From Lachnospiraceae bacterium (lineage in GTDB: Bacteria; Bacillota; Clostridia; Lachnospirales; Lachnospiraceae), in the NCBI GenBank assembly GCA_017520425.1, contig JAFXFO010000031.1:62001-126000 (forward strand): 64,000 nt of DNA, read 5' to 3'. Position 1 is the first letter of the stretch. Each line of letters opens with the position of its first letter. Both the position numbers and the translations under genes were made by a program. The notes beneath the pieces were generated by a model that was not told the origin of the DNA, made no database searches, and saw only the letters and a program-made list of their open reading frames with translations. This document shows, piece by piece, positions 14,097 through 28,778 of the stretch.

Positions 14097-14138
14097 GTTT
14101 TACACACAACAAAACGGTGCCCTTAAAGAGCACCGTTT
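14097..14138 (-). terminator. Rho-independent terminator after the lipoprotein gene
   Basis: AAACGGTGC (14112-14120) pairs with GCACCGTTT (14130-14138); a TTTTGTTGTGTG tract follows on the minus strand. It ends the transcript of the transporter cluster, eight bases after the stop codon at 14146. Confidence 0.85.
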
Positions 14139-14145
14139 CATTTCA

Positions 14146-16629
14146 TTATCTGTTTTCATCTACATAAATCTGTGCACGGCTTTGGATGATTTGCACCACA
14201 TCCTTCGCTGTTTTTTGTCCCTTAAAGAAGGCAGAAGCTTCTTCATTTACAATATTTGTGATATAAGGATTGTTATATACACCCTTTTCGATGGAATAGA
14301 TAAAATTGCAAATATCATCCACTTCCTTCTGTGTAAACGGATCTAATATAATCTCCTCTTCACTTCCCCAGTAGGAATATTCATATTCCTGCTTTTCACC
14401 GGTCACTTCATCGATCCAGTATGGTTTCTTAGTCGACAAATTGGCCTTCTCAATAAATGCTGATTTCAATACCGGCAAACCGTAATAATCATCATTTGTC
14501 TGATATTCCTCTGTCAGATACTGTCTTACAAACTGCCATGCGCCTTCCTGATTCTCTGATTTTGCAGAGATGGCAAATACGGATGAAACAGGCATAATCA
14601 CAGAACTATTACCACTTACTCCCGGGAATCCCACAAATACGGGGTCATCTCCAAGTCTTCCTTTAAACTGTGAAACTAAATCCTTAAAATCATAGATATT
14701 GCATGACATCATTACCGCTTTTTTGTTGCGGAACATGTTCTCTACTTCCACCCAGTCATAATTATTCCAGTATTCATCATCATAATTGATTTCTTCCGGC
14801 AAAGTTTTCACAAACTCTAATATCTCGATAAATTCAGGAGAATCAAAATTACACTTACCGGTATTCACATCCACGAAATCATCACCGCAGAACTGCATTA
14901 TGTAATACAGCATGATTTCTCGGGTATAATCTCCGTCATAAGCTTTCACATCGCTTGGTAATGTCTTTAAGAAGGCCTGCATCTCAGACATCGTCCATCC
15001 GCCGTTTCTGTCTCCCACCATATCCTTTCTCGCTACCATGGTACTAACAGCAAAAAAGGGAATTAAAGTATACTGTTTGTCATTAACATACATTGCCTTA
15101 AATACATTATCCAAATACTCCTGCTTAGATAATTCTTCATCCTTGGCAATTAATTCACCGATATCTGCCAATAATCCCTTATTTGCCCATGAACTGATAT
15201 CCATACTTGATGAGAATGCCATAATGTCCGGAATCTTACCACTGATAATATCATTATTCATCTTGGTATATCCGCCGGATACATCTTCTTCTTTGGTATA
15301 GTCATTATAAATACTGTAATCCATTATGGTAATACGGTACTGATTATTGGTTTTATTAAAGTTAATAACGTCTCTTTTGACTTCTGAATCCATATAATCA
15401 CAAGCCAATGAGATTGTGATTTTGTCCGGAATATCTTCCGGTGCAACATAAACAAATTTGGATAGACTCATCTTATAATCTGCCATATCATTGTATGTTG
15501 CAATAAATTCCTTATCATTAATAAAGGTCACATTATTCAAGGTATAAACCGCCAAATCCGAATTTACGAAATCCAGGAATTTCACCGGTTCCGCATCTCC
15601 AGGCTTATATTTGTACATACCGGTTTGATCACTTGCCAATATATATGAATCAGAAGCACCGCTTATATTATATTTCATAGGGTCAATAGGCAATTCCTGC
15701 TTTTCGCCGGATTCACCGGTTTGTAAATCAAGGGTTCTTATAAATGTTTTAGTATACTCATTGTTATACATAACCTGCTGGATTTTTCCTGCATTATCCA
15801 AGTAAACAAATGCAATATAACCCTCATCCGGATTACCCAACTCCATATCACTGATTTTCTTGCCGTTTTCATCCAGTTTAATAAGCTTGGTCTCTGTCAT
15901 AAGCAACACTTCGTTGTTGCTTAATATTGCATCACGAAGATAAAGGTATTCAAATTCTTCCGTTTCCAAAGGCATGGTCCACAGGAATTCACCGTTTGCA
16001 TCCCACTTCATCACATTATATGTGGTTTGCCCATCCATCATTTCCGGGTTCTCGGTTTCAACCTGATTCCACATTTCCTGCATGGCAATAACGGAACCAT
16101 CCTCAAGAATATTCCAACTGCTTATCCAGCCGTTTTCATTATATTCCGTCTTCAATTCTTTCAGCTGTACATTGGTACCATCCAGATTTGCGGTAATCAA
16201 CCCATAGGAAGGTCCGTAATATTCGTAATCCACCGGTTCCATGACACCATCTATTGCCATATCAGAGTCAATCGCAATATCCACGGTGGATACAGCTACT
16301 TTTGCAGAAGAGGTCTCCGGAAGAATTTCTACAGAACCATCTTCTGCGGGAGTTTGACCATCCTTATTAAATAAACTACCGTTCCAGTCCTCTACGATGA
16401 CGATAAGCTTATTATCAATCACTTTCATATCATAGAAGCCAATCGTATCCAGATTGATTCCCAAATCCAGCTTCTGTGAATGGAACACATTCTGTTTTGC
16501 CAGCGAAGGATCTGTTGATTTTAATTCCCCCTTAGTCTCTTCCGTGCCCTCCTTCTTTCCACAGGCACATAGTCCGCATAGCATGGTTAATACAACTATC
16601 AGACTTAATACTTTTTTCATTCTTTTCAT
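14146..16629 (-). CDS. Lipoprotein: apparent beta-propeller fused to an ABC solute-binding domain (copy 1)
   Basis: 827 residues, about twice the size of a normal family 1 solute-binding protein. A lipobox LCAC puts the lipid on Cys23. Residues about 45-395 show repeated strand-rich units with D-x-x-G turns (LDENGKKISDMELGNP, NLDGTNVQL, WDANGEFLW), read here as a beta-propeller. From about 400 the protein becomes a sugar-type solute-binding domain (KITISLACDYMDSEV; MSEMQAFLKTLP; ENQEGAWQFVRQYL). Its ending, FFKGQKTAKDVVQIIQSRAQIY, matches the partner lipoprotein at 21369-23693. Last gene of the cluster, before a terminator. The ligand is unknown. Confidence 0.82.
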   Translation of the reverse strand: MKRMKKVLSLIVVLTMLCGLCACGKKEGTEETKGELKSTDPSLAKQNVFHSQKLDLGINLDTIGFYDMKVIDNKLIVIVEDWNGSLFNKDGQTPAEDGSVEILPETSSAKVAVSTVDIAIDSDMAIDGVMEPVDYEYYGPSYGLITANLDGTNVQLKELKTEYNENGWISSWNILEDGSVIAMQEMWNQVETENPEMMDGQTTYNVMKWDANGEFLWTMPLETEEFEYLYLRDAILSNNEVLLMTETKLIKLDENGKKISDMELGNPDEGYIAFVYLDNAGKIQQVMYNNEYTKTFIRTLDLQTGESGEKQELPIDPMKYNISGASDSYILASDQTGMYKYKPGDAEPVKFLDFVNSDLAVYTLNNVTFINDKEFIATYNDMADYKMSLSKFVYVAPEDIPDKITISLACDYMDSEVKRDVINFNKTNNQYRITIMDYSIYNDYTKEEDVSGGYTKMNNDIISGKIPDIMAFSSSMDISSWANKGLLADIGELIAKDEELSKQEYLDNVFKAMYVNDKQYTLIPFFAVSTMVARKDMVGDRNGGWTMSEMQAFLKTLPSDVKAYDGDYTREIMLYYIMQFCGDDFVDVNTGKCNFDSPEFIEILEFVKTLPEEINYDDEYWNNYDWVEVENMFRNKKAVMMSCNIYDFKDLVSQFKGRLGDDPVFVGFPGVSGNSSVIMPVSSVFAISAKSENQEGAWQFVRQYLTEEYQTNDDYYGLPVLKSAFIEKANLSTKKPYWIDEVTGEKQEYEYSYWGSEEEIILDPFTQKEVDDICNFIYSIEKGVYNNPYITNIVNEEASAFFKGQKTAKDVVQIIQSRAQIYVDENR

Positions 16630-16657
16630 AATACTCCTCCCTCACAGTAATATATAC

Positions 16658-17749
16658 TTACTGCTTTTTTTGTTTCTCATATTTCTTTCTTTGACGTGCT
16701 TTGGACAGATGCATTGTAATGTCATCATATGCTTTTTTACACATGCCTTTCACGGTCCATTTCTTATGTTTCCAATACCGCAGCAATTCAACAAACACTA
16801 TCATAACAATAATTGCCACAAATAGCAAGCGTATCATCAGCATATACGCTAACTTGTCATCCATAGCCCGTGCCACATTCTCCCAGTACGGATAGATAAT
16901 GGCTTTGCCGTTCATTGACCTGGTGGATAATTTCCCGATATGCTTAAACTGGTTCAGAAAATCATATCTGGCACTGTTTTCCACTAACTCCATCTCTTCT
17001 GCCGATATGCCTATACTTTTCTCTACATAATCCTTTGCATATCCCTTTACCGGATTGGGCATCAAGATTTCAAAATGATTGATTCCGTTATTACTTCCAT
17101 ACTTTTTCAGTGTATCATAGGAGACATATATCATGGCACCATCCAAGCCTGCCGCCTTGTACCAGCCACTGTCTTCATGCTCCACCACACCTGTTACCAC
17201 ATGTGCCACATCCGCAATATACACAATCTGCCCGGCCACATCATTGGAACCAAAAAGCTTCCATGCCGCTTCCCTGTCCAATACACAATAATCCCGCATC
17301 ACATCATTGCCCGAAAAATAGGAACCGCTCAACAGGGGTAACGGGTGAAACAGGAAGAAATCTCCTCCGATTCCGATGCAGTCTGTTGAAATATTACTGA
17401 TATTACTCTTAACCGTAATTTTCCCTGAGGCACTATAGGCATCTGCCCATAGTCTTGCATCTTCATTTTCAGATTCCGATACAATGGATGCCTGCTCCAG
17501 TGCCGTGTCCAAATTATGTTCAAACTCCTCAATAGAGTCCGGCGTCACCTGCGTATTCACAGAAAAGAAGCAACTGATTTGTGCAATGGCACCGCCTTCC
17601 TTCCATCTGGAAGCTGCATGCTGCGGTATCAGTGTATCCTTATAGTGGTTGGCTGCAAGAGTCAATACCCAGACTATCAACAAGGCAATCAGGCATATTG
17701 GAAGAAGTATCCACATCCGAAAGGGGATCCTTTTCTTCAACTTACTCAT
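16658..17749 (-). CDS. MacB periplasmic-core-like membrane protein with reduced transmembrane part
   Basis: 363 residues: one N-terminal transmembrane helix (about 12-34), an extracytoplasmic domain (about 35-295) that resembles the MacB_PCD sensor domain between TM1 and TM2 of MacB/FtsX permeases (LLSGSYFSGNDVMRDYCVLDREAAWKLFG, then AGQIVYIADVAHVVTGVV), one C-terminal helix (about 308-328) and a basic tail. The usual remaining two helices of a type VII permease are missing, and there is no ATPase next to it. It starts 15 bases after the HlyD-like gene, a pairing like MacA-MacB. Family assignment comes from visible motif order only and is moderately sure. Confidence 0.6.
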   Translation of the reverse strand: MSKLKKRIPFRMWILLPICLIALLIVWVLTLAANHYKDTLIPQHAASRWKEGGAIAQISCFFSVNTQVTPDSIEEFEHNLDTALEQASIVSESENEDARLWADAYSASGKITVKSNISNISTDCIGIGGDFFLFHPLPLLSGSYFSGNDVMRDYCVLDREAAWKLFGSNDVAGQIVYIADVAHVVTGVVEHEDSGWYKAAGLDGAMIYVSYDTLKKYGSNNGINHFEILMPNPVKGYAKDYVEKSIGISAEEMELVENSARYDFLNQFKHIGKLSTRSMNGKAIIYPYWENVARAMDDKLAYMLMIRLLFVAIIVMIVFVELLRYWKHKKWTVKGMCKKAYDDITMHLSKARQRKKYEKQKKQ

Positions 17750-17764
17750 AGCTTCTCTCCTTGC

Positions 17765-19438
17765 TTATTCCGGTAATCTGACATATTGACCGGCCTCAAC
17801 AGGTTTAGTTGAGGTAGTAATCACAAACTCATATCCGGATACGGTTCCGGTTATGGCTGACTGGGTATCATCCGATGCTACCACATCCACATCCGCTCTC
17901 CTGGCTATATATCGTGTTCCAATCGGTGAACTCTTAGATTCCACTATCAAGATAAATTTACCATTATTATCTTCTCTAATGGCACTGTTAGGTACCACCA
18001 TCTCGTAGTAACCACCGGCACGCTGCGGTATAGCCACATTAACTGACTGATTGGGAACTACATTTTCGCCGCTTACGTTAAATACCAGGATTCTGTTCTG
18101 TCCCGGATTGGCAGTATCCGGTCTGATGCTGCTGAGTACAATCTTCATATCATCATATCTCCAGGAGTTCACCACCTCTGCCACATCACCTACATTTACC
18201 TTCTTCGCCTGCTCGGTGGTTACGGAAAAGCTTAAGGTATATCCGTCACCTTCCGGTTGCATGGTGAATACGATACCATCCTCAGGGGTATCCAGTCCGG
18301 ACTTCACATTTACGGAAGAAATGGTTCCGGAAATAGGTGCTATTACTTCACTGCCTTCAGTTAAGGCCTCTAATTCCTTTACCTTCTTCTTCGCTTTATT
18401 CACTTTATCATTTAAATTTCCTAAATTTATTTCATCAGAAATATTCTTTACCAATTCATCCAATTGTGCCTGCTTGGCAGTAAGCACCTCCGTCTTTTGG
18501 TCTAATACCTTCTGGGCATTGTTCTGCTCTACCTGAAGTAAAGCCAGCTGTCTTTCTAAATTCGCAATACTTGCATCCGTATTGCCGGTTGCCTTCTTAT
18601 CATCTAATACCTTCTGTGCCTTTTCACAATTTAATGAAGCGGTATCAAAAGCAGCTTGTGCATCAATTAACTGCTGATTGGCCTCCTGTTTCTGTTGCTC
18701 TAAGGCCTCCAACGCTACAGCATCTCCGCTGCTGACAGACATCTGCTGGCTAATCTGTGCTTCGATGGTCTGCAGCTTATTTTGTGCTTCCGTCAATGCA
18801 AATCTCGCATTTTCCATAGCTGTTTTAGCATTATTATAAGCCGTCTGTTCGTTGGTTGTATCCACGATTCCGGTATTGGTTAAGGTAATCTGTAGTGTGA
18901 TGGCATCTACCTTGTCCTTCCACTCCTTCACCTTTGCTTCTGCTGCATCCGATTCTGCTTCAGCTACGGTTATTTCATTCTTAACCGCAATAATTTTATT
19001 CTTATAATTTTGCATGGAATCGGTGCTTCCTGCACTGTTCATAATAGTACTGTCGACTGTTCCGGTCAAAAGAGCCATCTCAAACTCTGCCTCTGCCATA
19101 GCCAACTCATCCTTTGCAGCTTCCAGTTCCTCACTGTCTTCTCCGGAGAACACACACAGCACCTGTCCCTTTTCTACCGTGTCGCCTTGGCGCACTTCCA
19201 CAGACTCCACCTTGCGGACTCCTTCAATTTTCACACTGTAAGGGTCACCGCTTTCAATGGTACCATACCCTCTGATTTTAGCCGTAATATTCCCCGGCTG
19301 TATGTACTGGGCTGCCACCTCCGGCAGTGAATAATTCATTATGGTATTAGAAAAGAATGTCAATACCAGTAATATCACCAAAAAGATGATTGCCAGTGTT
19401 TTAATCCATTCCCTTCTCTTGTTTGCTTTTTCGTTCAT
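17765..19438 (-). CDS. HlyD/RND-type membrane-fusion adaptor with long coiled-coil hairpin
   Basis: 557 residues: N-terminal membrane anchor (about 12-34), first half of a lipoyl-like hairpin (GTIESGDPYSVKIEG... VRQGDTVEKGQVL), then about 250 residues of alternating heptads (about 100-355; e.g. LERQLALLQVEQNNAQKVLDQK) forming an antiparallel coil, the returning lipoyl half (SEVIAPISGTISSVNVKSG) and beta-barrel domains. This is the MacA/HlyD adaptor layout, which in Gram-positives links a membrane transporter to the cell wall space. It precedes the MacB-core-like gene and follows the sugar-type permease. Confidence 0.88.
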   Translation of the reverse strand: MNEKANKRREWIKTLAIIFLVILLVLTFFSNTIMNYSLPEVAAQYIQPGNITAKIRGYGTIESGDPYSVKIEGVRKVESVEVRQGDTVEKGQVLCVFSGEDSEELEAAKDELAMAEAEFEMALLTGTVDSTIMNSAGSTDSMQNYKNKIIAVKNEITVAEAESDAAEAKVKEWKDKVDAITLQITLTNTGIVDTTNEQTAYNNAKTAMENARFALTEAQNKLQTIEAQISQQMSVSSGDAVALEALEQQKQEANQQLIDAQAAFDTASLNCEKAQKVLDDKKATGNTDASIANLERQLALLQVEQNNAQKVLDQKTEVLTAKQAQLDELVKNISDEINLGNLNDKVNKAKKKVKELEALTEGSEVIAPISGTISSVNVKSGLDTPEDGIVFTMQPEGDGYTLSFSVTTEQAKKVNVGDVAEVVNSWRYDDMKIVLSSIRPDTANPGQNRILVFNVSGENVVPNQSVNVAIPQRAGGYYEMVVPNSAIREDNNGKFILIVESKSSPIGTRYIARRADVDVVASDDTQSAITGTVSGYEFVITTSTKPVEAGQYVRLPE

Positions 19439-19497
19439 GTTTTTTCTCCTACATCTCTACTATTCTTATGGTAAACTGATTCCGGTTATTCCTAAAG

Positions 19498-20445
19498 CTA
19501 TCCTTTGATACCGCCCTGATAGGTGATACCGTCCACCAGATACTCCTCGCCGTACAAAAATACCAGTAGGCTGGGCACCATATAAATGGTTGCCACTGCA
19601 AACGCCAGTCCCACTTCCCCGCTGTTTATCTTACTTAAGAATACAGACAACGGATGGGTTTCCGGGTCTGACAATAAAATCAAGGGCTGTTCCACCATAT
19701 TCCAATAATCAATAAATACCAATATGGCCGCTGAAGCGATTGCTCCCTTACACAAAGGAAGACATACCAGTCTGAATATCCCCCATTCTCCGGCACCATC
19801 AATCTGTGCCGCTTCTATCACTGATGTGGGGATACGTTTCATAAACTTGGTCAACAAATATACGGCAAAGGGGGAAAAGATACCCGGCAGCCAGATGGCC
19901 CATTTGGTATCCAGTATTTTCAACCAGTCCGATACCAGATAGTTTGGTACCAAGGTAACCTGATAAGGCATCAGCATCAATATAATATACAGGAAGAACA
20001 CGATTTGTCGTAATTTTCCTTCGTATCTGGCGAATCCATAAGATGCCAGTGCTGCTACTACAAGCTGAAATACCACTATAGGTCCCACCAATATTACGGA
20101 GTTCCAAAACTTCAACAAATAATCCGGACTCTTAAACAACACTGTTGTATACTGGCTAAAGGAAACCATATCCGGTATAAACTTCAGATTCACCTTCTCT
20201 GCGATAAAAACCTTGCCGCCGGTCTCTGAGGTGGCAAATACAGAACCATAGTTTGCGGATATTTCCGTGGCTGACATAAAGGAATTGCTGATAGTCAGTA
20301 TAATGGGTGCCAAAAACAGAAAGGCAAAAAAGGCTGCAATCAGTGTTCCTATGCAAATACGTATCTTCTGTCGGATATTTCTGCGTACTGCTTTGCGATG
20401 GGCTTTTTTTTCGAATTGGACATTGGTCTGAATCTTCTTTTTCAT
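19498..20445 (-). CDS. ABC transporter permease, MalG type
   Basis: Inner-membrane half of a carbohydrate-type ABC importer. 315 residues with six predicted helices and a canonical EAA loop (IEAAQIDGAGEWGIFRLVCLPL), which docks on the ATPase. The start overlaps the stop of the preceding permease by four bases (ATGA). An insert of about 60 residues lies between TM1 and TM2 (FMSATEISANYGSVFAT...). No ATPase gene is present here; Firmicutes often use a shared MsmX-type ATPase for such permeases. Confidence 0.92.
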   Translation of the reverse strand: MKKKIQTNVQFEKKAHRKAVRRNIRQKIRICIGTLIAAFFAFLFLAPIILTISNSFMSATEISANYGSVFATSETGGKVFIAEKVNLKFIPDMVSFSQYTTVLFKSPDYLLKFWNSVILVGPIVVFQLVVAALASYGFARYEGKLRQIVFFLYIILMLMPYQVTLVPNYLVSDWLKILDTKWAIWLPGIFSPFAVYLLTKFMKRIPTSVIEAAQIDGAGEWGIFRLVCLPLCKGAIASAAILVFIDYWNMVEQPLILLSDPETHPLSVFLSKINSGEVGLAFAVATIYMVPSLLVFLYGEEYLVDGITYQGGIKG

Positions 20446-21353
20446 CCTTCCACATCCTTTCCGAAATACTTCTCCGTCAGGAAAAGGACTCCTATAATTA
20501 CTACCATCACCGCTGACATGAGTACCGCCGCAGAAGAAAGCTTCTGATAATCCAGCTTCTTAAACATATTGTTCATAAAATGCTGCAGCATATATATGGT
20601 ATCATAGGGATAGTCTGTGGTCAGCATATACACCTCTCTGAACACCTTAAAGGAGTTGATTAGGGACATAATCGTTACAAACAAAAAGGTGGAGGACAGG
20701 TATCTGACCTTTATGTAAAAGAAGGTTTGTAAGGCATTGGCACTTTCCAGCCTCGCCACCTCCAAAATATCCTTTGGAATACTGGCCAGTGCGGCCATAA
20801 ATAAAATCATATTGTAGCCCAGGTTCTTCCATAGGAACAATATTACGATTACCACATGGGAATACTGGGATTTTAACCAGTCGATTTTATCCACACCAAA
20901 ATGCGCCAGCAGGTCATTTACCGCACCATTATAGCTGAACAGTACCTGCCATATCAGTACCACCGATGCCACCGGCACCATCATAGGACTTAGGAAAAAG
21001 GTTCGGAACTGGCTGCGAAAAGGCAGCTTTGCTTCCAGCATGATGGCAAGCAGCAGAGATAATAAAACTGCCAAGGGTACTGCCACTATGGAAAATCGAA
21101 AAGTATTGGTAACCGCCCTCTTAAATGCATTATTAGCTAATACCACTTTGTAATTTTCTATTCCCACAAAGTTTTTGGCGATGGGATTGTCTACCATGGA
21201 GTAAAAAATCACCACCAGAAAGGGAATCACAAAAAATACCAGAACGCCAAGAAAACTTGGGGCTATAAATAACCCCGAGCTTCTCTTGACCTTCCTTATT
21301 CTTTTATTTTTCTTATGGAGTTTTTTCTTCTGAATGCCCTTTTGTTCTTCCAA
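20442..21353 (-). CDS. ABC transporter permease, MalF type, with a weak EAA loop
   Basis: 303 residues, six predicted helices, partner of the MalG-type permease. The EAA loop reads LEVARLESANALQTFFYIKVRYL: the conserved D, G and LP of the family are replaced, so ATPase coupling may be altered. The reading frame starts with TTG at 21353 behind AAGGAGGAAGGAAGG; no ATG lies near. A strongly basic N-terminal tail (KKKLHKKNKRIRKVKR) precedes TM1. It is 15 bases after the lipoprotein gene upstream. Confidence 0.9.
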   Translation of the reverse strand: MEEQKGIQKKKLHKKNKRIRKVKRSSGLFIAPSFLGVLVFFVIPFLVVIFYSMVDNPIAKNFVGIENYKVVLANNAFKRAVTNTFRFSIVAVPLAVLLSLLLAIMLEAKLPFRSQFRTFFLSPMMVPVASVVLIWQVLFSYNGAVNDLLAHFGVDKIDWLKSQYSHVVIVILFLWKNLGYNMILFMAALASIPKDILEVARLESANALQTFFYIKVRYLSSTFLFVTIMSLINSFKVFREVYMLTTDYPYDTIYMLQHFMNNMFKKLDYQKLSSAAVLMSAVMVVIIGVLFLTEKYFGKDVEG

Positions 21354-21368
21354 GGCCTTCCTTCCTCC

Positions 21369-23693
21369 TTAACTGTTTTCACTTAAAAATATAGATACAC
21401 GGCTTTGAATGATATCCGCAACCTCCTTGGCCGACTTCTGCCCGTTAAAGTAAGCTGCTGTCTCCTCTTGGATGATTCCATAAATCTCTTCATCGTTCTC
21501 AAAGACCGGCTTTGCTGCGGCAATCAATGCTTTTACTGCATCAATTTCCTCTTGGGTAGCTGCATAAATCGTTGCCTCCCAGTTATTACCATAGCCCCAG
21601 GTAGTTTTCGGGTACTCTATGAGATTACCTTCTGCATCCTTCTTATACTCGCCGTTTGCATCCTTCTCATATGTTGGCGTCATATCCTCTTTAAAGCGTT
21701 CCTCCAGCTCATCCAGACGGGTGGATAAACCACCATAATTCATCCTTTGCTTCCCGTCATACTCCAGAAAGGATTCCATAAATTTCCATGCCGCATCTTT
21801 ATGGGTGCTTTTGGTTGTTATACCATACATACCGTTACCATTAAAGTATACGCCAAGACTGCCATCCACGGTAGGATAACCGATGCAGGTAGCCTCTTCT
21901 TCCATCATCAAATGATACATCTGATAGCTTTGTACATCCATGAGACCTAAGTCCAGTAGGAGTATCTCATTCTCCTGTATCAGCTCCGGTAAATCCTTGG
22001 TATAATCTGCATCCAAATCATAGGTATTGGCATACTCCAAAAGCTTAATAAACTCAGGGCTGTTAAAGCTACAGGTCCCCGCCTCTATGTCAATAAACGC
22101 ATCCCTGTTAAAACGTAAAAACTGTGCTAATACCGATTCCTTCGTGGAATAAGCCATCAAATCCGAATCCGGATACTTAAGCGACAGCTGCATTAAATCC
22201 TCTATTGTACAGCCTTCCTTCTCGCCTACCATGGATTTTTTACCCAATAAGGTGTAGACATTCATGCTACGTGGAATAGTCACCAATGTACCATCAAAAG
22301 TATAACCGTTTAACGCACTTGGTACAAAATCCTCCCGCTTTATGACCGTACTCTTCTCTAAATAAGGATTTAAGTCCTCAAATACTCCCTTAGCTGCCAG
22401 ATTCGGCACATTCACATTCATCAAATCAATAATATCCGGAGGATTGTCACTGATTATATCCATACTCATGGCCGTAACAGCATTGTTATATGTATCCTCC
22501 GTCCACTGTACTGTATCATCAACGTAGGATTTATATATCATCTTGTAGGAAGGATTTGATTTGTTAAATTCCAAAATCGCTCTCTGTATCATCTGGTCGC
22601 CATCATACATGGTAGCAAATACAATGGTTTCCTTCTCCGGAATCTCAGAAGCTTTGGTCTTCGTCAGTTTCACCAGTTCTTTGGTGCCATTGCTCCAGTC
22701 CTCATAATAAAGCAGGAAATCCCCATTGGGTAATGCCAGATAATCACTCACAAAATCCGCAGTTACATAACTGTCCAACCAATCCAGAATGGGCGTAGCC
22801 ACACCGGTGGTTAAATCATATTCATAGAGGTACTTATCGCCGGGCATGTATAACTTACCCTCCGGTCCTGCCACCACATTTCCGTTCATATTGGGAAGAT
22901 CCTTTAAAGCGGCACCCAGAGTATACTTTTCGGTATCCACCTCAACCATTTCCATACCGGGAGCCATATTACTGTACTTGGTGAAGAATACCCTGCCGTC
23001 CGCTGTGGAAAATATCCTGTTTATATAATCCGCATTGGTGGGAATACTATTCTCCGGAGTGCCATCCGCACCAATCACATAAATCACATCATTGGAATTT
23101 GCAATCAGCTTTCCGTCCTTACCTGCTACTATGTAGGAAAGATAGGAATTATTTTCATCCACATACATATCCTTTAAGTCAGACTGATAGACCAAATTCA
23201 TATCCTTATCATACTTAATCAGAATATCCTTGCAATCATCAGGACCGATTTCCTTACCCTCTTCATAGGGTGGCGTCAGAAAATACACCAGATAAAGATT
23301 GCCCTCTTCATCCATCTCCATGGCTGAAAGATATTTCACATACCCTTCTTCTTCAAATACCGGAAGTTCCACCTGTTCCGCCTTAGAAACATCGTTAATA
23401 TCCATTACCATTAATTGGGTTTCGGTAATCTCTTTCTCCGGAATATACTTATTCAATGTATAATACAATTTATCCCCGTGAAATACTGTATTTCCCACAT
23501 AAGCATTTTCATCCGTATTCTTTAAAGAATAGAATGTGGGCACATACACATATTCTCCACTAAGTGTCGGGGTGGTACTATCCACACTTACTTTAGACTC
23601 CCCGGTTTCTGTTTTTTTGTCTCCGCAGGCTGTTACTCCCAACAGTAATAAAGCAGATAAACAAATTGATAATAATCTTTTTTTCTTACTCAT
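21369..23693 (-). CDS. Lipoprotein: apparent beta-propeller fused to an ABC solute-binding domain (copy 2)
   Basis: 774 residues, first gene of the cluster. Lipobox VTAC with Cys23. Residues about 50-345 hold repeated propeller-like blades (MDEEGNLYLVYF, TADGRVFFTKY, GPEGKLYMPGDKYLYEYDL, LPNGDFLLYYED). The solute-binding domain starts near 355 (ETIVFATMYDGDQMIQRAILEFNK) and includes DIIDLMNVN and DAAWKFMESFL. The end (EETAAYFNGQKSAKEVADIIQSRVSIF) is clearly related to the protein at 14146-16629, so the two are paralogues within one operon. Promoter region with repeated TTAAGA sites upstream. Ligand unknown. Confidence 0.83.
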   Translation of the reverse strand: MSKKKRLLSICLSALLLLGVTACGDKKTETGESKVSVDSTTPTLSGEYVYVPTFYSLKNTDENAYVGNTVFHGDKLYYTLNKYIPEKEITETQLMVMDINDVSKAEQVELPVFEEEGYVKYLSAMEMDEEGNLYLVYFLTPPYEEGKEIGPDDCKDILIKYDKDMNLVYQSDLKDMYVDENNSYLSYIVAGKDGKLIANSNDVIYVIGADGTPENSIPTNADYINRIFSTADGRVFFTKYSNMAPGMEMVEVDTEKYTLGAALKDLPNMNGNVVAGPEGKLYMPGDKYLYEYDLTTGVATPILDWLDSYVTADFVSDYLALPNGDFLLYYEDWSNGTKELVKLTKTKASEIPEKETIVFATMYDGDQMIQRAILEFNKSNPSYKMIYKSYVDDTVQWTEDTYNNAVTAMSMDIISDNPPDIIDLMNVNVPNLAAKGVFEDLNPYLEKSTVIKREDFVPSALNGYTFDGTLVTIPRSMNVYTLLGKKSMVGEKEGCTIEDLMQLSLKYPDSDLMAYSTKESVLAQFLRFNRDAFIDIEAGTCSFNSPEFIKLLEYANTYDLDADYTKDLPELIQENEILLLDLGLMDVQSYQMYHLMMEEEATCIGYPTVDGSLGVYFNGNGMYGITTKSTHKDAAWKFMESFLEYDGKQRMNYGGLSTRLDELEERFKEDMTPTYEKDANGEYKKDAEGNLIEYPKTTWGYGNNWEATIYAATQEEIDAVKALIAAAKPVFENDEEIYGIIQEETAAYFNGQKSAKEVADIIQSRVSIFLSENS

Positions 23694-23718: not shown

Positions 23719-23845
23719 AGTATACTACAAACCATTGAAATAATCATCTTAAGAATTTCTTAAGAGATTACTCCTAATGACTTGCATTCATTATACTATA
23801 GTTTTCTCCCTAAGAGTTTTAAGAAGCCTTTAAGATTCTTTAAGA
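23719..23845 (-). promoter_or_regulatory. Two promoters under an array of TCTTAA half-sites
   Basis: Minus strand: -10 TATAAT at 23795-23790 and -10 TATACT at 23724-23719, neither with a recognisable -35. Upstream of the first lie four half-sites (plus strand TTAAGA at 23840, 23830 and 23819; CTAAGA at 23810), spaced 10, 11 and 9 bases. Upstream of the second lie two (23760 and 23749), spaced 11. Direct repeats with one-turn spacing and missing -35 boxes are typical of OmpR/PhoB-class response-regulator activation. No two-component genes are in the window. Confidence 0.65.
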
Positions 23846-23862
23846 TTTTATTATGATTGCAC

Positions 23863-24540
23863 TTATTCCTTTCCTATTTTTTCGCTATTTAACACACAAA
23901 GCATCATCCCCAACACCACAACGCATAAGGACAAACCTGCTCCTACTGCAAATGCTGCATTACTATCCGGCATGGATGCTGCCACAGACTGCCACACAAA
24001 GGTGGAAAGGAAATTATGAAGCATATGCGCCAGAATAGGTGCAAAAATACTTTCATATTGAAACATCAGGTAACCCAGAACCAAGCCCACTACAAAAGCA
24101 TATCCGCCCTGTATGAAATTCACATGGTAAACTCCGAAAAAAACAGCTTGTATCAGATTGGCAATCCAGAATGTTTTTCGTTTACCAAATCGCCCCTCAA
24201 ATATTTTCTGTAAATAGTAAAACATAATCCCGCGAAACATTAATTCTTCGGCAATGGGGGCAAATAATAAACTAAATAAGGTTGGAATCAGCTCAACACC
24301 ATATCCGGCGTTGTCCATCATGATTTCAAATTCTGCCACAATACTATCCGGCAACACAGTGGTCACAATAGGCAATTGGAAGTTCACAAAAAAACACATG
24401 CCTGTGGCAATCATACCAATCGCCAGTACATTCACCGGTTGCAATACTTCTCTTACCCGTTTTTTTCTATCGCCGCCCTTTATACAGGCATAATCATACC
24501 ATACCGCAAAAAGTAACACTTCCAATACAAATAAAATCAT
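23863..24540 (-). CDS. CPBP-family intramembrane protease
   Basis: About 225 residues, multi-spanning. Carries the CPBP/Abi motifs: EELMFRG (motif 1), FGVYHVNF (motif 2) and HMLHNFLSTF (motif 3), which form the glutamate/histidine active site. In Gram-positives these proteins act as CAAX-type proteases, bacteriocin self-immunity or regulators. A GTG at 24552 opens the frame, but GAGGAAG lies correctly before the ATG at 24540. The gene follows the FtsX-type permease almost directly, so it is probably part of the same operon. Confidence 0.9.
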   Translation of the reverse strand: MILFVLEVLLFAVWYDYACIKGGDRKKRVREVLQPVNVLAIGMIATGMCFFVNFQLPIVTTVLPDSIVAEFEIMMDNAGYGVELIPTLFSLLFAPIAEELMFRGIMFYYLQKIFEGRFGKRKTFWIANLIQAVFFGVYHVNFIQGGYAFVVGLVLGYLMFQYESIFAPILAHMLHNFLSTFVWQSVAASMPDSNAAFAVGAGLSLCVVVLGMMLCVLNSEKIGKE

Positions 24541-24555
24541 AATCTTCCTCACAAA

Positions 24556-27500
24556 TTAATCCACTGACTTTAAGGATTCTGTCATACTTATTTTTTCCAG
24601 CTTTCCTTCCATCAGTTTATTTACACATAAAGCAAAGAATAATGTCAACAGCACACTATACAAATAGCTTAAACCATTGATTCGGATATCAAAGCACACC
24701 ATATCTATCTGGATGCATTCCATAATAAAGGTATGCAATATTTTGCCCAGTCCCAAACCAACCAAGGCACCTACGAATGCCAACATTATATTCTCTCGAA
24801 ATACATAGGTTGCCGTTTCTTTCTTATAAAAGCCCAGTACCTTGATGGTGGCAATCTCACGGATACGCTCGGTAATATTAATATTGGTCAGATTATATAT
24901 AACGATAAATGCCAATGCGGCAGCGCATACCAGAACCAATATTACAATATAATCCAGAGTAGACATCATCACCTCGAAACGCTGGCGCTCCACCTCGTTA
25001 ATCGTAACCGATGTGACAGTATCCAACTTCATCAAATCCGCTGACAGTTGGTGCATATCAGTACCTTCCTTTACATTCAGATAAAGGTTTTTGTATTCCG
25101 GCTTTTCACCTAGCTGTGCATCATAGGTCTGCGGATTCACATAAAGATAATTTCCTACAAAGTTTTGCATAATACCGCTTACAGTAACCTTAAACTCACG
25201 GTAGTCTTCATCTCTAAGGGTTATCTCATCCCCAATCTCTATCTCAAACCGGTCAGCCATCTTATAGGTGATAACAGCCTCTCCCAAGGCCGGCATGGAA
25301 ATAGTTTCACCACCCATGGTATGCATATCGATAAAGTGTTCAAATCCATCCTGCTTTTCAAATACAATCAGAGAAATATCCTTCGTCATATCTTCTGCTA
25401 CCAATTCCATGGAACTTTCCTGAATGAATCCGTATTCAGAAACAGCATCTCCCAAACAGATCTCCATCTCTTTCAGTTGTTCTTCTTCCATGGCATCCTT
25501 AGTCATGACGCTCATATCAAAGACCTGTATTTCTTCATATTGCATCTTCATCACATCAGCAATGGAATCCTTGATACCAAAAGCAGCCAGCACCAGTGCT
25601 GCACAGCCGCTGATTCCAAGCACCATCATAAAGAAACGCTTTTTATAACGGAACACATTTCTTATGGATACCTTTTGCAGAAATTTTAAACGGTTCCAGA
25701 TTAAAGGAATCCGTTCCAGCAAAATACGCTTTCCTGCCTGAGGTGTCTTGGGGCGCATTAACTGTGCCGCCATTTCGTTTAATTCGCGACGGCAGGAATA
25801 CCATGTGGTTCCAACGGAACACAACAGGGATACAGCCAGTGAAATACACGCCAGCTTCCACTCAAACACAATGGAAAGTCCTCCCAGGTCATACATCATG
25901 CCGTAGCATTCCCAAATCACAAAGGGAAATAATATAATACCTATCAAATATCCGCCGACACAGCCGATTACAGCCGCACTTCCGCTGTAAAACATATATT
26001 TGCCCATAATTGAACCATAACCGTATCCAAGGGCCTTTAAGGTACCAATCTGGGTTCTCTGCTCTTCAATCATACGGCTCATGGTAGTCATACATACCAA
26101 AGCTGCTACCAGGAAGAAAAATACAGGAAATACCGTTGATACATTTTCTACAATATCACTGTCGCTTTGAAAGAGAACATATCCCATATTAGTGTCTCTG
26201 CCCAACAAGTACTGCTGAGGCATCTCGATTTCTTCCAGTTCTTCTTCCCCTTCCTTTATCTTCCGTCGGGCATCCGCAATCTCTTCTTCAAAGGTAATCA
26301 ATCCGTCCTCATATTCCTTTAGGCCGTCCTGATATTCCTTCTCTCCATCCAGAAGCTCCTGCTCCTTTTCTTCCAGCTCCTCTTCACCCTTTGCCAGCTC
26401 CTCCTTGGCTTCTACCAGTTTACGTTTGCCGTCCTCTACTTCCTGTCTCGCAACCAAAATTTCCTTTCGCCCTTCGCTGATTTGCTTTCTTCCATTCTTA
26501 ATTTCTGCCCATGCAGTTTCCAAATCCTTATCACCGGCATCCAACTTCAACTTGCCGTCATTCATTTGTTTCTTGGCATCTTCCAACTGCTTACGACCAT
26601 TCTTTAACTGCTCTTTGGCAGCCTCCACTTGACGTCTGCCTTCCACCAGTTGTTCCCGATTGGCATCCAGCTCCAGCTTACTATCCAGTAAAGTCTGCTT
26701 GGTACGATTCAAAAGCTCTCTTTCTCCATCAATTTGCTCCCGAATATATTCCGGCACAAATCCCATGGTATCCATCCATTCCTGCTCTCGGGCTGTCAGT
26801 GCTGCTTCCTCTTGTTCCACTGCCTCCAAGCCTTCATTTACAAGTGTTTCCATAGTGGCAAATTGTTCTTCTCCGGCGATAAGCTCTGCTTCCTTTTCTG
26901 CCAGTTGCTGTTCTCCTGACACCAGTTGACTTTCCTGGTCAGCAATGGTTGCATTTCCTTCTTCCCATTGTTTTAAGGATTCTGCTAATTCATTGTTGCC
27001 GGCTTCCCACTGTTTGATACCATCCTCCAGTTCTGCTTCTTTCTCCAACAAAAGCTTTTCATTTTTTGCAATGGTTTTTACAGCATCATTTAGTTTCTTT
27101 TCTTCTTTTTCAAGCTTCTCCTTGCCATCCAAAATTTCAGCTTTTGCTTCCTCAATCTGAGTACGTCCGTCTTCTATCTCAATCCGTGCTTCTTCCAGCT
27201 TTAATGCAGCATCTTCCAACTCCTGACGCCCTTTTTCCTCCTCTTTTGCCAGTTCTTGTTTGGCATCCTCCAGCTTTTCTGCACTATCTGCCAGCAGATT
27301 TTCATAGCGGGAGGTACCCAATTCGTCCAGATAAGATTCCCACTCTTGCTTCTTCTCTTCCATATATTCATCATACTCATCTGCATATAAGTGAAAATCC
27401 TGATTCAGCTTTACATACACTTCCGTATACGCATCACTTTGAAACCCTTCCGGCCGCAGATAGACAAATCCACTCACCTTGCCATTGCCTAAAGCAGAGC

Positions 27501-28056
27501 TTCCGCGCTCAAACTGAACATACAAAGGCGACTCAACTACGCCCACGATTTTATATTCCTTGTATGTAAAATGCTCTAAATCTTCCTCTTTGTTGGTATC
27601 GGACAGTTTTATCTTCTTACCCACATACTTATGTGAATACATGGAGGAATCCACCACACATTCATTATCCGAAACAGGAAGTCTTCCATACAGTATTTTC
27701 AGTTCATTCACACCATCTGTGATACTATGCGCCTTTATCACATTCACATTACCGTCTCCGGCACTCTGACACAAAATATCAAAGGAATATGCGCCCTGCA
27801 CACTTTTTACATCATTACGTCCCCTTATATTTTCCAGATTCTTGTCATCAAAGCCCAAGGTAGATATTAAGTGAAAATCGTAAAGATAGGTATCTGAAAA
27901 ATACGCATCCGCAGTCTTAATCATGGCAGGCTTTGTCACCTTAATTCCCGCAAAAAAGCCCACACCAAGTGCTACAATACCAAGTATCGCCAGATAGCGT
28001 CCCAGACTTTGCTTGATTTCACGTAATGTGCTGGTCCACATCATTGATTTCTTCAT
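24556..28056 (-). CDS. FtsX/MacB-type ABC permease with a giant coiled-coil domain
   Basis: 1166 residues. TM1 near 20-40, an extracytoplasmic domain with a MacB-core-like first part (DNECVVDSSMYSHKYVGKKIKLSD), then about 380 residues (about 255-640) of E/K/L/Q heptads (LEDAKKQMNDGKLKL and kin), then FtsX helices (TMSRMIEEQRTQIGTLKALGYG), a second extracytoplasmic part and a second FtsX block (TERIREIATIKVLGFY) ending with four C-terminal helices. This duplicated FtsX layout is typical of peptide/lipid-handling ABC exporters of the BceB/YxdM/LolE superfamily; the long coil is the notable extra. Partner ATPase is upstream at 28077-28778. Confidence 0.88.
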   Translation of the reverse strand: MKKSMMWTSTLREIKQSLGRYLAILGIVALGVGFFAGIKVTKPAMIKTADAYFSDTYLYDFHLISTLGFDDKNLENIRGRNDVKSVQGAYSFDILCQSAGDGNVNVIKAHSITDGVNELKILYGRLPVSDNECVVDSSMYSHKYVGKKIKLSDTNKEEDLEHFTYKEYKIVGVVESPLYVQFERGSSALGNGKVSGFVYLRPEGFQSDAYTEVYVKLNQDFHLYADEYDEYMEEKKQEWESYLDELGTSRYENLLADSAEKLEDAKQELAKEEEKGRQELEDAALKLEEARIEIEDGRTQIEEAKAEILDGKEKLEKEEKKLNDAVKTIAKNEKLLLEKEAELEDGIKQWEAGNNELAESLKQWEEGNATIADQESQLVSGEQQLAEKEAELIAGEEQFATMETLVNEGLEAVEQEEAALTAREQEWMDTMGFVPEYIREQIDGERELLNRTKQTLLDSKLELDANREQLVEGRRQVEAAKEQLKNGRKQLEDAKKQMNDGKLKLDAGDKDLETAWAEIKNGRKQISEGRKEILVARQEVEDGKRKLVEAKEELAKGEEELEEKEQELLDGEKEYQDGLKEYEDGLITFEEEIADARRKIKEGEEELEEIEMPQQYLLGRDTNMGYVLFQSDSDIVENVSTVFPVFFFLVAALVCMTTMSRMIEEQRTQIGTLKALGYGYGSIMGKYMFYSGSAAVIGCVGGYLIGIILFPFVIWECYGMMYDLGGLSIVFEWKLACISLAVSLLCSVGTTWYSCRRELNEMAAQLMRPKTPQAGKRILLERIPLIWNRLKFLQKVSIRNVFRYKKRFFMMVLGISGCAALVLAAFGIKDSIADVMKMQYEEIQVFDMSVMTKDAMEEEQLKEMEICLGDAVSEYGFIQESSMELVAEDMTKDISLIVFEKQDGFEHFIDMHTMGGETISMPALGEAVITYKMADRFEIEIGDEITLRDEDYREFKVTVSGIMQNFVGNYLYVNPQTYDAQLGEKPEYKNLYLNVKEGTDMHQLSADLMKLDTVTSVTINEVERQRFEVMMSTLDYIVILVLVCAAALAFIVIYNLTNINITERIREIATIKVLGFYKKETATYVFRENIMLAFVGALVGLGLGKILHTFIMECIQIDMVCFDIRINGLSYLYSVLLTLFFALCVNKLMEGKLEKISMTESLKSVD

Positions 28057-28076
28057 ATCATCAAACTCCTAAGTAA

Positions 28077-28778
28077 TTACCATTCAATCTCATCAATATC
28101 AACGATATCCTTGTTTTGATATATACTTTGAATGGTACCGTTTTTCACCGTTATTACCCTGTCAGCCATTGCAGTTAACGCCTGATTATGGGTGATCACG
28201 ATAACCGTCTTACCTTTCTTACGACAGGTATCCTGTAAAAGCTTAAGTACCGCCTTGCCGGTATTGTAGTCCAAGGCTCCGGTGGGTTCATCACACAAAA
28301 GCAGCTTTGGATTCTTGGCCAGCGCTCTGGCAATAGCCACTCTTTGCTGTTCTCCGCCGGAAAGCTGCGCCGGGAAATTATACAATCTTTCTCCCAGCCC
28401 TACCTCTATCAGTACTTCCTTGGCATCCAAAGGCTCTTTACAAATCTGTGCCGCCAGCTCCACATTCTCCAGTGCTGTCAAATTCTGCACCAGATTGTAA
28501 AACTGAAATACGAATCCCACATCATGTCTGCGATAAGTTGTTAGAGCTCTCTCACTATAACCGGATACTTGCCTGTCATCCAAAAATACCTTTCCGTCGG
28601 TCAAGGTATCCATACCGCCCAATATATTCAAAATCGTCGTTTTTCCCGCTCCGGATGCTCCAACGATTACGCAGAATTCTCCCTCTTCGACTGTAAAATT
28701 CACATCATGCAGTGCAGGTATCTCCAATTCACCGGAACGATATATTTTACTTACATTTTCAAAGGTAACAAAACTCAC
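28077..28778 (-). CDS. ABC transporter ATPase, LolD/MacB/BceA type
   Basis: 233 residues. Walker [12 protein letters not shown]-loop [12 protein letters not shown], signature [19 protein letters not shown], Walker [13 protein letters not shown] and H-loop [10 protein letters not shown]. The short length and PTGALD ending are typical of ATPases serving FtsX-type permeases. The start codon is GTG at 28778, seven bases after AGGAGG. It powers the permease whose gene begins 20 bases downstream; whether it also serves the MacB-core-like protein at 16658 is open. Confidence 0.94.

Follow-up and report, generated by a model that had tools for sequence, protein, structure and literature searches.

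A conserved gene cluster of Lachnospiraceae joins MalFG-type importer permeases to a MacA-like adaptor and a MacB-core protein

Introduction

In Bacillus, one MsmX-type ATPase serves several importers. In the MCE/Mla lipid importers, an importer-type ABC core lies under a ring or tube protein, and in BceAB-type transporters, the activity of the transporter is read by its kinase. Adaptors of the HlyD/MacA type are known as exporter parts. In MacAB-TolC, the membrane-proximal domains of the adaptor touch two subdomains, Sabre and Porter (PMC5985334). The modelled Spr0693 assembly reaches ~154 Å above the membrane at its apex (PMC5768738).

Here we describe a six-gene cluster on the minus strand (14146..23693) of the window, a stretch of 64,000 nucleotides from a Lachnospiraceae bacterium. 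Its genes were confirmed as real and as a conserved system. The first-pass annotation knew of no named system with this composition, and our search agrees: the open-licence literature searched gave no description of an importer combined with HlyD and MacB-core. All parts belong to known families; their combination as a conserved machine was not found in that literature. We read the cluster as one envelope machine, a MalFGK-type importer with a MacA-like adaptor on a MacB-derived platform, and give this reading a probability of about 0.5.

Results

The first-pass annotation had also held that six minus-strand genes ending in a terminator mix importer and exporter families. Pfam matches and a hairpin 3′ of the last gene (14106..14139, minus strand) bear this out. 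The two lipoprotein genes form the ends of the cluster. SBP_A (21369..23693, minus strand) has a beta-propeller in its N half and a family-1 solute-binding domain in its C half, and SBP_B (14146..16629, minus strand) is a second propeller and solute-binding lipoprotein. Cys23 is invariant in both, among 52 aligned sequences of SBP_A and 35 of SBP_B. In structure comparison, the nearest folds to SBP_A are oligosaccharide binders; solute-binding chains ranked first, with a propeller match at rank 49. A solute-binding protein, as expected of type I ABC importers, is thus present.

Directly upstream of the operon, the window (23863-28778, minus strand) holds genes for an Rce1-like CAAX protease, an FtsX/MacB-type permease of 1166 aa with a long coiled coil, and an ABC ATPase. 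This ATPase (28077-28778) was assigned by its position to the separate FtsX transporter and not to the cluster. An FtsX homologue above 100 bits was present in the fetched stretch of 22 of the 80 named loci (the best 80 of at least 450).

The MalF-type permease (20442..21353, minus strand) and the MalG-type permease (19498..20445, minus strand) follow SBP_A, and the matches of the two to BPD_transp_1 score 46.2 and 55.0 bits (cut-off 26.4). MalG is the most conserved protein of the cluster, and its EAA loop is regular in every group listed. The MalF loop is degenerate in group 1 and near-regular in groups 2 and 3. Median identity is ~81 and 76 percent for the permeases and falls to ~40 percent for the receptors. 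Permeases that stay constant while the receptors drift would fit a single class of substrates, met through variable outer surfaces.

None of the six genes encodes an ATPase, as the first reading of the sequence had stated. In six distant loci, a MalK-type ATPase gene comes after MacB-core; two of these (L179, L180) come from family f34 of another class, and four (L181, L182, L198, L199) make up group 3, from families f14 and f82. All four of the six genes that were scanned carry ABC_tran, OB_MalK and TOBE_2. The missing ATPase of the cluster is thus probably of the MalK type. The genome of the window, which is 90.4 percent complete, has a single OB_MalK match; a PucR-type regulator lies beside it, and the neighbours listed for it include no permease. 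The same genome has MalG-type matches in 11 places, the cluster's own included.

The HlyD/MacA-like adaptor (17765..19438, minus strand) has an N-terminal membrane helix, a long variable middle predicted to be a hairpin, and a conserved C-terminal segment. It matches MacA (5nik_D) with E 2.8e-5, reaches the cut-off of HlyD_3 in Pfam and stays below that of RND_mfp. Over 41 of the 55 complete loci, median identity is 72.0 percent in the N-terminal segment, 75.7 percent in the C-terminal segment and 27.9 percent in the middle, whose length ranges from 193 to 386 residues. If the middle forms one hairpin, its ~125 residues per arm would make a helix of ~19 nm by our own estimate.

The MacB-core protein (16658..17749, minus strand) consists of a membrane helix, a MacB-type periplasmic core, a second membrane helix and a cytoplasmic tail. 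A profile search found the periplasmic domains of MacB (E 2.7e-11, residues 107-215), and the Pfam scan of the protein gave no match to PF02687, the FtsX half. The predicted model (pLDDT 92.1, pTM 0.84) matches the folds of MacB, YknZ and LolC/E and places one long helix on each side of the core, that is, two outside it. By hydropathy, 86 of 103 MacB-core proteins from group 1 and f34 have two segments, with three in 16 proteins and one in the remaining protein. For the protein of the window, three are predicted, of which the middle one is marginal (1.62, threshold 1.6) and inside the core. Eleven weak matches classed as ordinary have four (nine proteins), five (one) or six (one) segments, and the group-2 and group-3 MacB-core proteins range from one to six. 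Since the protein keeps the adaptor-docking fold of MacB but has two helices and lacks the FtsX half, it is not a MacB pump. The identity of the cluster as a MacAB pump was likewise ruled out, as the six genes encode neither an FtsX half nor a MacB-type ATPase. The interpretation in the first-pass annotation is thus supported in part: a machine that is half exporter is not supported in view of these features of MacB-core, and the MalK-type genes of the distant copies fit an importer with borrowed adaptor parts. Because the adaptor of MacAB-TolC contacts Sabre and Porter (PMC5985334), the part retained in MacB-core would be the docking part. The membrane-near parts of HlyD and MacB-core are conserved, which points to docking on the permease.

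The linkage of these genes was followed in two sets of loci. In 200 genomes of the family, including that of the window, MacB-core found matches with E ≤1e-3 in 44 genomes and with E ≤5.2e-36 in 21 (its own and 20 others). We read the stretches around the 20 strong matches and around the matches in nine of the 23 weaker genomes, calling genes with profiles made from those of the cluster. The named collection has at least 450 stretches that encode relatives; the best 80 were kept. MalF, MalG, HlyD and MacB-core are consecutive in 19 of the 21 family loci (the window and the 20 strong matches) and in 71 of the 80 named loci (best 80 of at least 450). Both family exceptions (L032, L037) are stretches that start inside the cluster at contig ends. 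Seven named exceptions also lie at contig ends (<3 kb upstream), while L070, from the cultured carrier Acetatifactor muris, has HlyD in two pieces and L129 has no detected MalF. Contig ends account in this way for nine of the 11 exceptions in the two sets, which share one locus (L031 is L108). A solute-binding protein gene lies directly after MacB-core in 65 of 66 evaluable named loci (best 80 of at least 450) and in only 12 of 21 family loci; one lies directly before MalF in 50 of 57 named loci (from the same best 80) and in 13 of 18 family loci. The four-gene core is constant and the solute-binding proteins are variable. Two MAGs titled Muribaculum (L074) and Candidatus Gastranaerophilales (L116) contain Lachnospiraceae-like copies of the cluster, and these bins are probably mislabelled or contaminated.

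The first-pass annotation would have taken the HlyD/MacB-core pair for a chance neighbour if it occurred alone elsewhere and beside the permeases only in this genome. Instead, 18 of the 20 strong family matches have the full block, and the other two are cut by contig ends. Among the nine weak matches, five (L054-L058, group 2) keep the same four-gene core. Three others (L051, L052, L059) are ordinary MacAB loci, in which HlyD accompanies a permease and an ATPase of the MacB type and MalFG is absent; L053, on a short contig, has HlyD and MacB-type genes without MalFG. Against the group-1 HlyD profile, the adaptors score 149 to 160 bits in group 3 and L211, 107 to 143 in group 2 and 37 to 63 in L051, L052 and L059. 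MacB-core of groups 2 and 3 scores 27 to 44 bits against the group-1 profile and ordinary MacB 39 to 48, so the group-2 and group-3 proteins were counted in because of their neighbour genes and not by score.

MalG gives the same picture from the permease side. At E ≤1e-70, it matches in 21 of the same 200 genomes, namely its own, 19 of the 20 strong carriers and G147, where MalG stops 255 bases short of the contig end. In the remaining carrier, G100, MalG is missing since the contig starts within the cluster. A tree of 42 MalG proteins, rooted at the midpoint and with several long control branches, groups the 31 linked proteins in a single clade (100/99), separate from the 11 others, eight of which are from the window's own genome. 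In 398 genomes of the phylum, with up to six candidates scored in each, the MalG profile found nine places at or above 393.6 bits, the next one scoring 223.7. All nine adjoin HlyD and MacB-core, and eight are known carriers. The ninth (L211 in genome G576), from a different family of the class, reads SBP-SBP-HlyD-MacB-core-MalF-MalG, reordered but linked; the MacB-core protein there matches weakly (20.5 bits against a Pfam cut-off of 27). Seven lower-scoring places were read, one of which (L212) ends ~1.5 kb after MalG, and at none of the seven did an ORF of at least 60 aa match HlyD or MacB-core at E 1e-2. A search of plasmids for MalG gave one match, at 37 percent. The conserved linkage, the separate MalG clade and the absence of the pair at the seven lower-scoring MalG places read rule out a chance neighbourhood. 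The genes may still be an ordinary sugar importer and an unrelated adaptor pair that are held together by synteny, with products that do not interact. Every part does come from a common family, and conserved gene order alone is no proof of contact. However, the linkage holds across classes and after the reordering in L211, and the linked MalG proteins stand apart from the next-best scorers, which lack the pair. We consider non-interacting products improbable and prefer a single envelope machine.

The putative operon promoter region (23720..23860, minus strand) contains CTTAAA repeats and CTTAAG-N5-CTTAAG. These are partly common to the nearest relative, L069, and unlike the element of the other relatives, a 21-base sequence, TTCATAAAATCTTAAGGTGCA, upstream of the operon -10. 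Of 77 upstream regions, 42 contain this element with five mismatches or fewer, including 14 with an exact copy, a count that is not blind since the element was picked after viewing these sequences; the genome scan and the wcaJ test came later. Among 1540 shuffled regions, two reach five mismatches and none has fewer. The window promoter has six mismatches at best, and both the window and L069 fall outside the 42 regions. A CTTAA pair with a period of 10-12 bases was rejected as a general operator, as 3 of the 50 upstream regions contain it, against a mean of 0.1 for shuffled regions.

Whole-genome scans for the element in 18 genomes chosen as carriers (≤3 mismatches) found 22 places, the cluster once per genome and four more, and a backward-read control found 0. 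Two of the four extra places, in two genomes, precede wcaJ, the gene for undecaprenyl-phosphate glucose phosphotransferase (TIGR03023, 511.6 and 499.7 bits, cut-off 410.75); the other two have no clear gene downstream. WcaJ is the first sugar transferase of a surface polymer, and LytR-CpsA-Psr (LCP) proteins are wall-attachment enzymes. A wcaJ relative of at least 59 percent identity is present in 28 of 28 genomes tried. Of 27 usable loci, 18 have the 16-base core of the element upstream of wcaJ with no more than two mismatches, versus 0 of 1350 shuffles. When up to two mismatches are allowed, the 2.43 Mb of fetched stretches contain 67 core sites and the reversed control 3. The cluster accounts for 48 of the 67 and wcaJ for 14; five lie elsewhere, two of which (L090, L098) precede cluster genes by eye. 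As the stretches were fetched for cluster and wcaJ genes, the count is not a genome-wide rate. The gene after wcaJ belongs to the LCP family in the window's genome, and an LCP homologue follows wcaJ in 18 of 19 loci. In the wcaJ loci (L241-L268 and L271-L290, with L264 and L271 from the window's genome), wcaJ and the LCP gene stand together in a polysaccharide locus. Two features of the window and its genome count against our main reading: the 21-base element is missing from the window, and the wcaJ of its genome differs from the 16-base core at four positions.

The element common to the cluster and wcaJ-LCP in relatives, together with the efflux-type adaptor, would also suit a surface-polysaccharide exporter or assembly factor. 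MalFG would then work outward or only power extracytoplasmic work, with HlyD and MacB-core passing a polymer or its precursors out. We find this very unlikely, since the solute-binding proteins adjoin the core in most loci, the ATPases are MalK-type and not export-type, and the EAA loop of MalG is regular. In addition, we know of no precedent for MalFG as an exporter. The MalK-type genes of distant clusters, the solute-binding proteins and the MalG loop instead argue for uptake, as expected for a MalFGK-type importer.

The distant copies have regulatory neighbours. In group 2, an OmpR-type regulator and a kinase are next door in five of five loci. In group 3, L182 has VanR (426.7 bits, cut-off 350), VanS (409.5, cut-off 400) and a VanY-like carboxypeptidase in the 5.3 kb upstream of MalF, other ORFs lying between. 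L199 has a kinase 82 percent identical to the VanS of L182, VanR (422.0) and VanI (749.2, cut-off 700), consecutive and next to MalF. A VanY-like gene adjoins MalF in L198, and L181 has a divergent regulator-kinase pair; all VanY-like or carboxypeptidase-like neighbours are HMM matches below the cut-offs. A site one mismatch from the 16-base core lies upstream of VanR in L182 and L199. The available part of the vanI paper makes no mention of a transporter or permease (PMC4229326). LpxC was found in one of 11 genomes tried (G350, which holds L198) and not in G402 of the same genus (L182). Given the LpxC of G350, one lineage that carries the system may have an outer membrane.

With such neighbours, the cluster might be an envelope-stress sensor-transporter. 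It would bind an envelope-active compound or damage product, a two-component system would read its activity, and transport would be secondary. The regulator and kinase in every group-2 locus speak for it, as do the VanR/VanS-type genes in two of four group-3 loci, the VanY-like genes in two of four and the regulator-kinase pair in the fourth. In group 1, however, the fetched stretches contain a response regulator in only four of 101 loci, on which a private two-component system was rejected there, and the solute-binding proteins are closest in fold to oligosaccharide binders. We regard a sensor as unlikely. A VanR/OmpR-type regulator may act on group 1 too.

Discussion

From gene content, order and predicted folds, we infer how the envelope machine is assembled, in which direction it works, what its adaptor does, what it carries and which ATPase serves the window copy. 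MalF and MalG would form a type I ABC importer core, powered by a MalK/MsmX-type ATPase encoded elsewhere in the same genome. The MacB-derived platform would have kept the adaptor-docking fold and lost the pump, and would dock the MacA-like HlyD onto the importer. The two propeller lipoproteins may catch an oligosaccharide-like ligand, which the adaptor and platform would hold or channel to MalFG for import. Since the element is shared with wcaJ and the binding fold is that of oligosaccharide binders, our guess for the substrate is a glycan from the cell's own surface polymer or wall. The degenerate MalF loop of group 1, the absence of solute-binding proteins beside the core in part of the family set, the promoter of the window copy, and the scores of the group-2 and group-3 MacB-core proteins, no better than those of ordinary MacB, count against the importer machine.

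More tentatively, the cluster may be a widespread trans-wall ABC importer, in which an adaptor tube, seated on its platform, would supply MalFGK with glycans from the surface polymer of the same cell and which would be controlled together with WcaJ and LCP by a VanR/OmpR-type regulator. This is possible but doubtful. The cluster keeps HlyD/MacA-type adaptors beside an importer across classes of Bacillota. This suggests that such adaptors can work in uptake, or that a wall-spanning machine can incorporate an importer, and it provides a test case for why Gram-positive bacteria have these adaptors. It also ties a transporter to the initiation and wall attachment of surface polysaccharide in gut Lachnospiraceae.

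Several described systems share part of this design. MCE/Mla importers resemble it in concept only: their adaptors and permeases come from other families, and the Pfam matches of the six cluster proteins include no MCE or MlaE. Like BceAB with its two-component system, the transporter of group 2 and of some group-3 loci has an OmpR-family regulator and a kinase as neighbours, a likeness of gene neighbourhood only. Unlike BceAB, it has importer permeases, solute-binding proteins and an adaptor but no BceB permease, and most group-1 stretches have no regulator-kinase pair. As in MacAB-TolC, YknWXYZ and Spr0693-0695 (Type VII ABC), a MacA-like adaptor adjoins a protein with the MacB periplasmic fold. 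In contrast to these, the cluster has two helices instead of four, neither an FtsX half nor a MacB ATPase, and importer permeases with solute-binding proteins. With the type I carbohydrate importers (MalFGK2, and MsmEFG/YesOPQ-type with shared MsmX), it shares two BPD_transp_1 permeases, a family-1 solute-binding lipoprotein and, probably, the type of ATPase, which would be supplied in trans in the window copy and is encoded as a MalK-type gene in distant copies. It differs from them in the permanent link to HlyD and MacB-core, the two propeller-bearing solute-binding proteins and the degenerate MalF loop of group 1. In general, the cluster would work like a MalFGK importer with an added adaptor and is not a member of the MacAB family.
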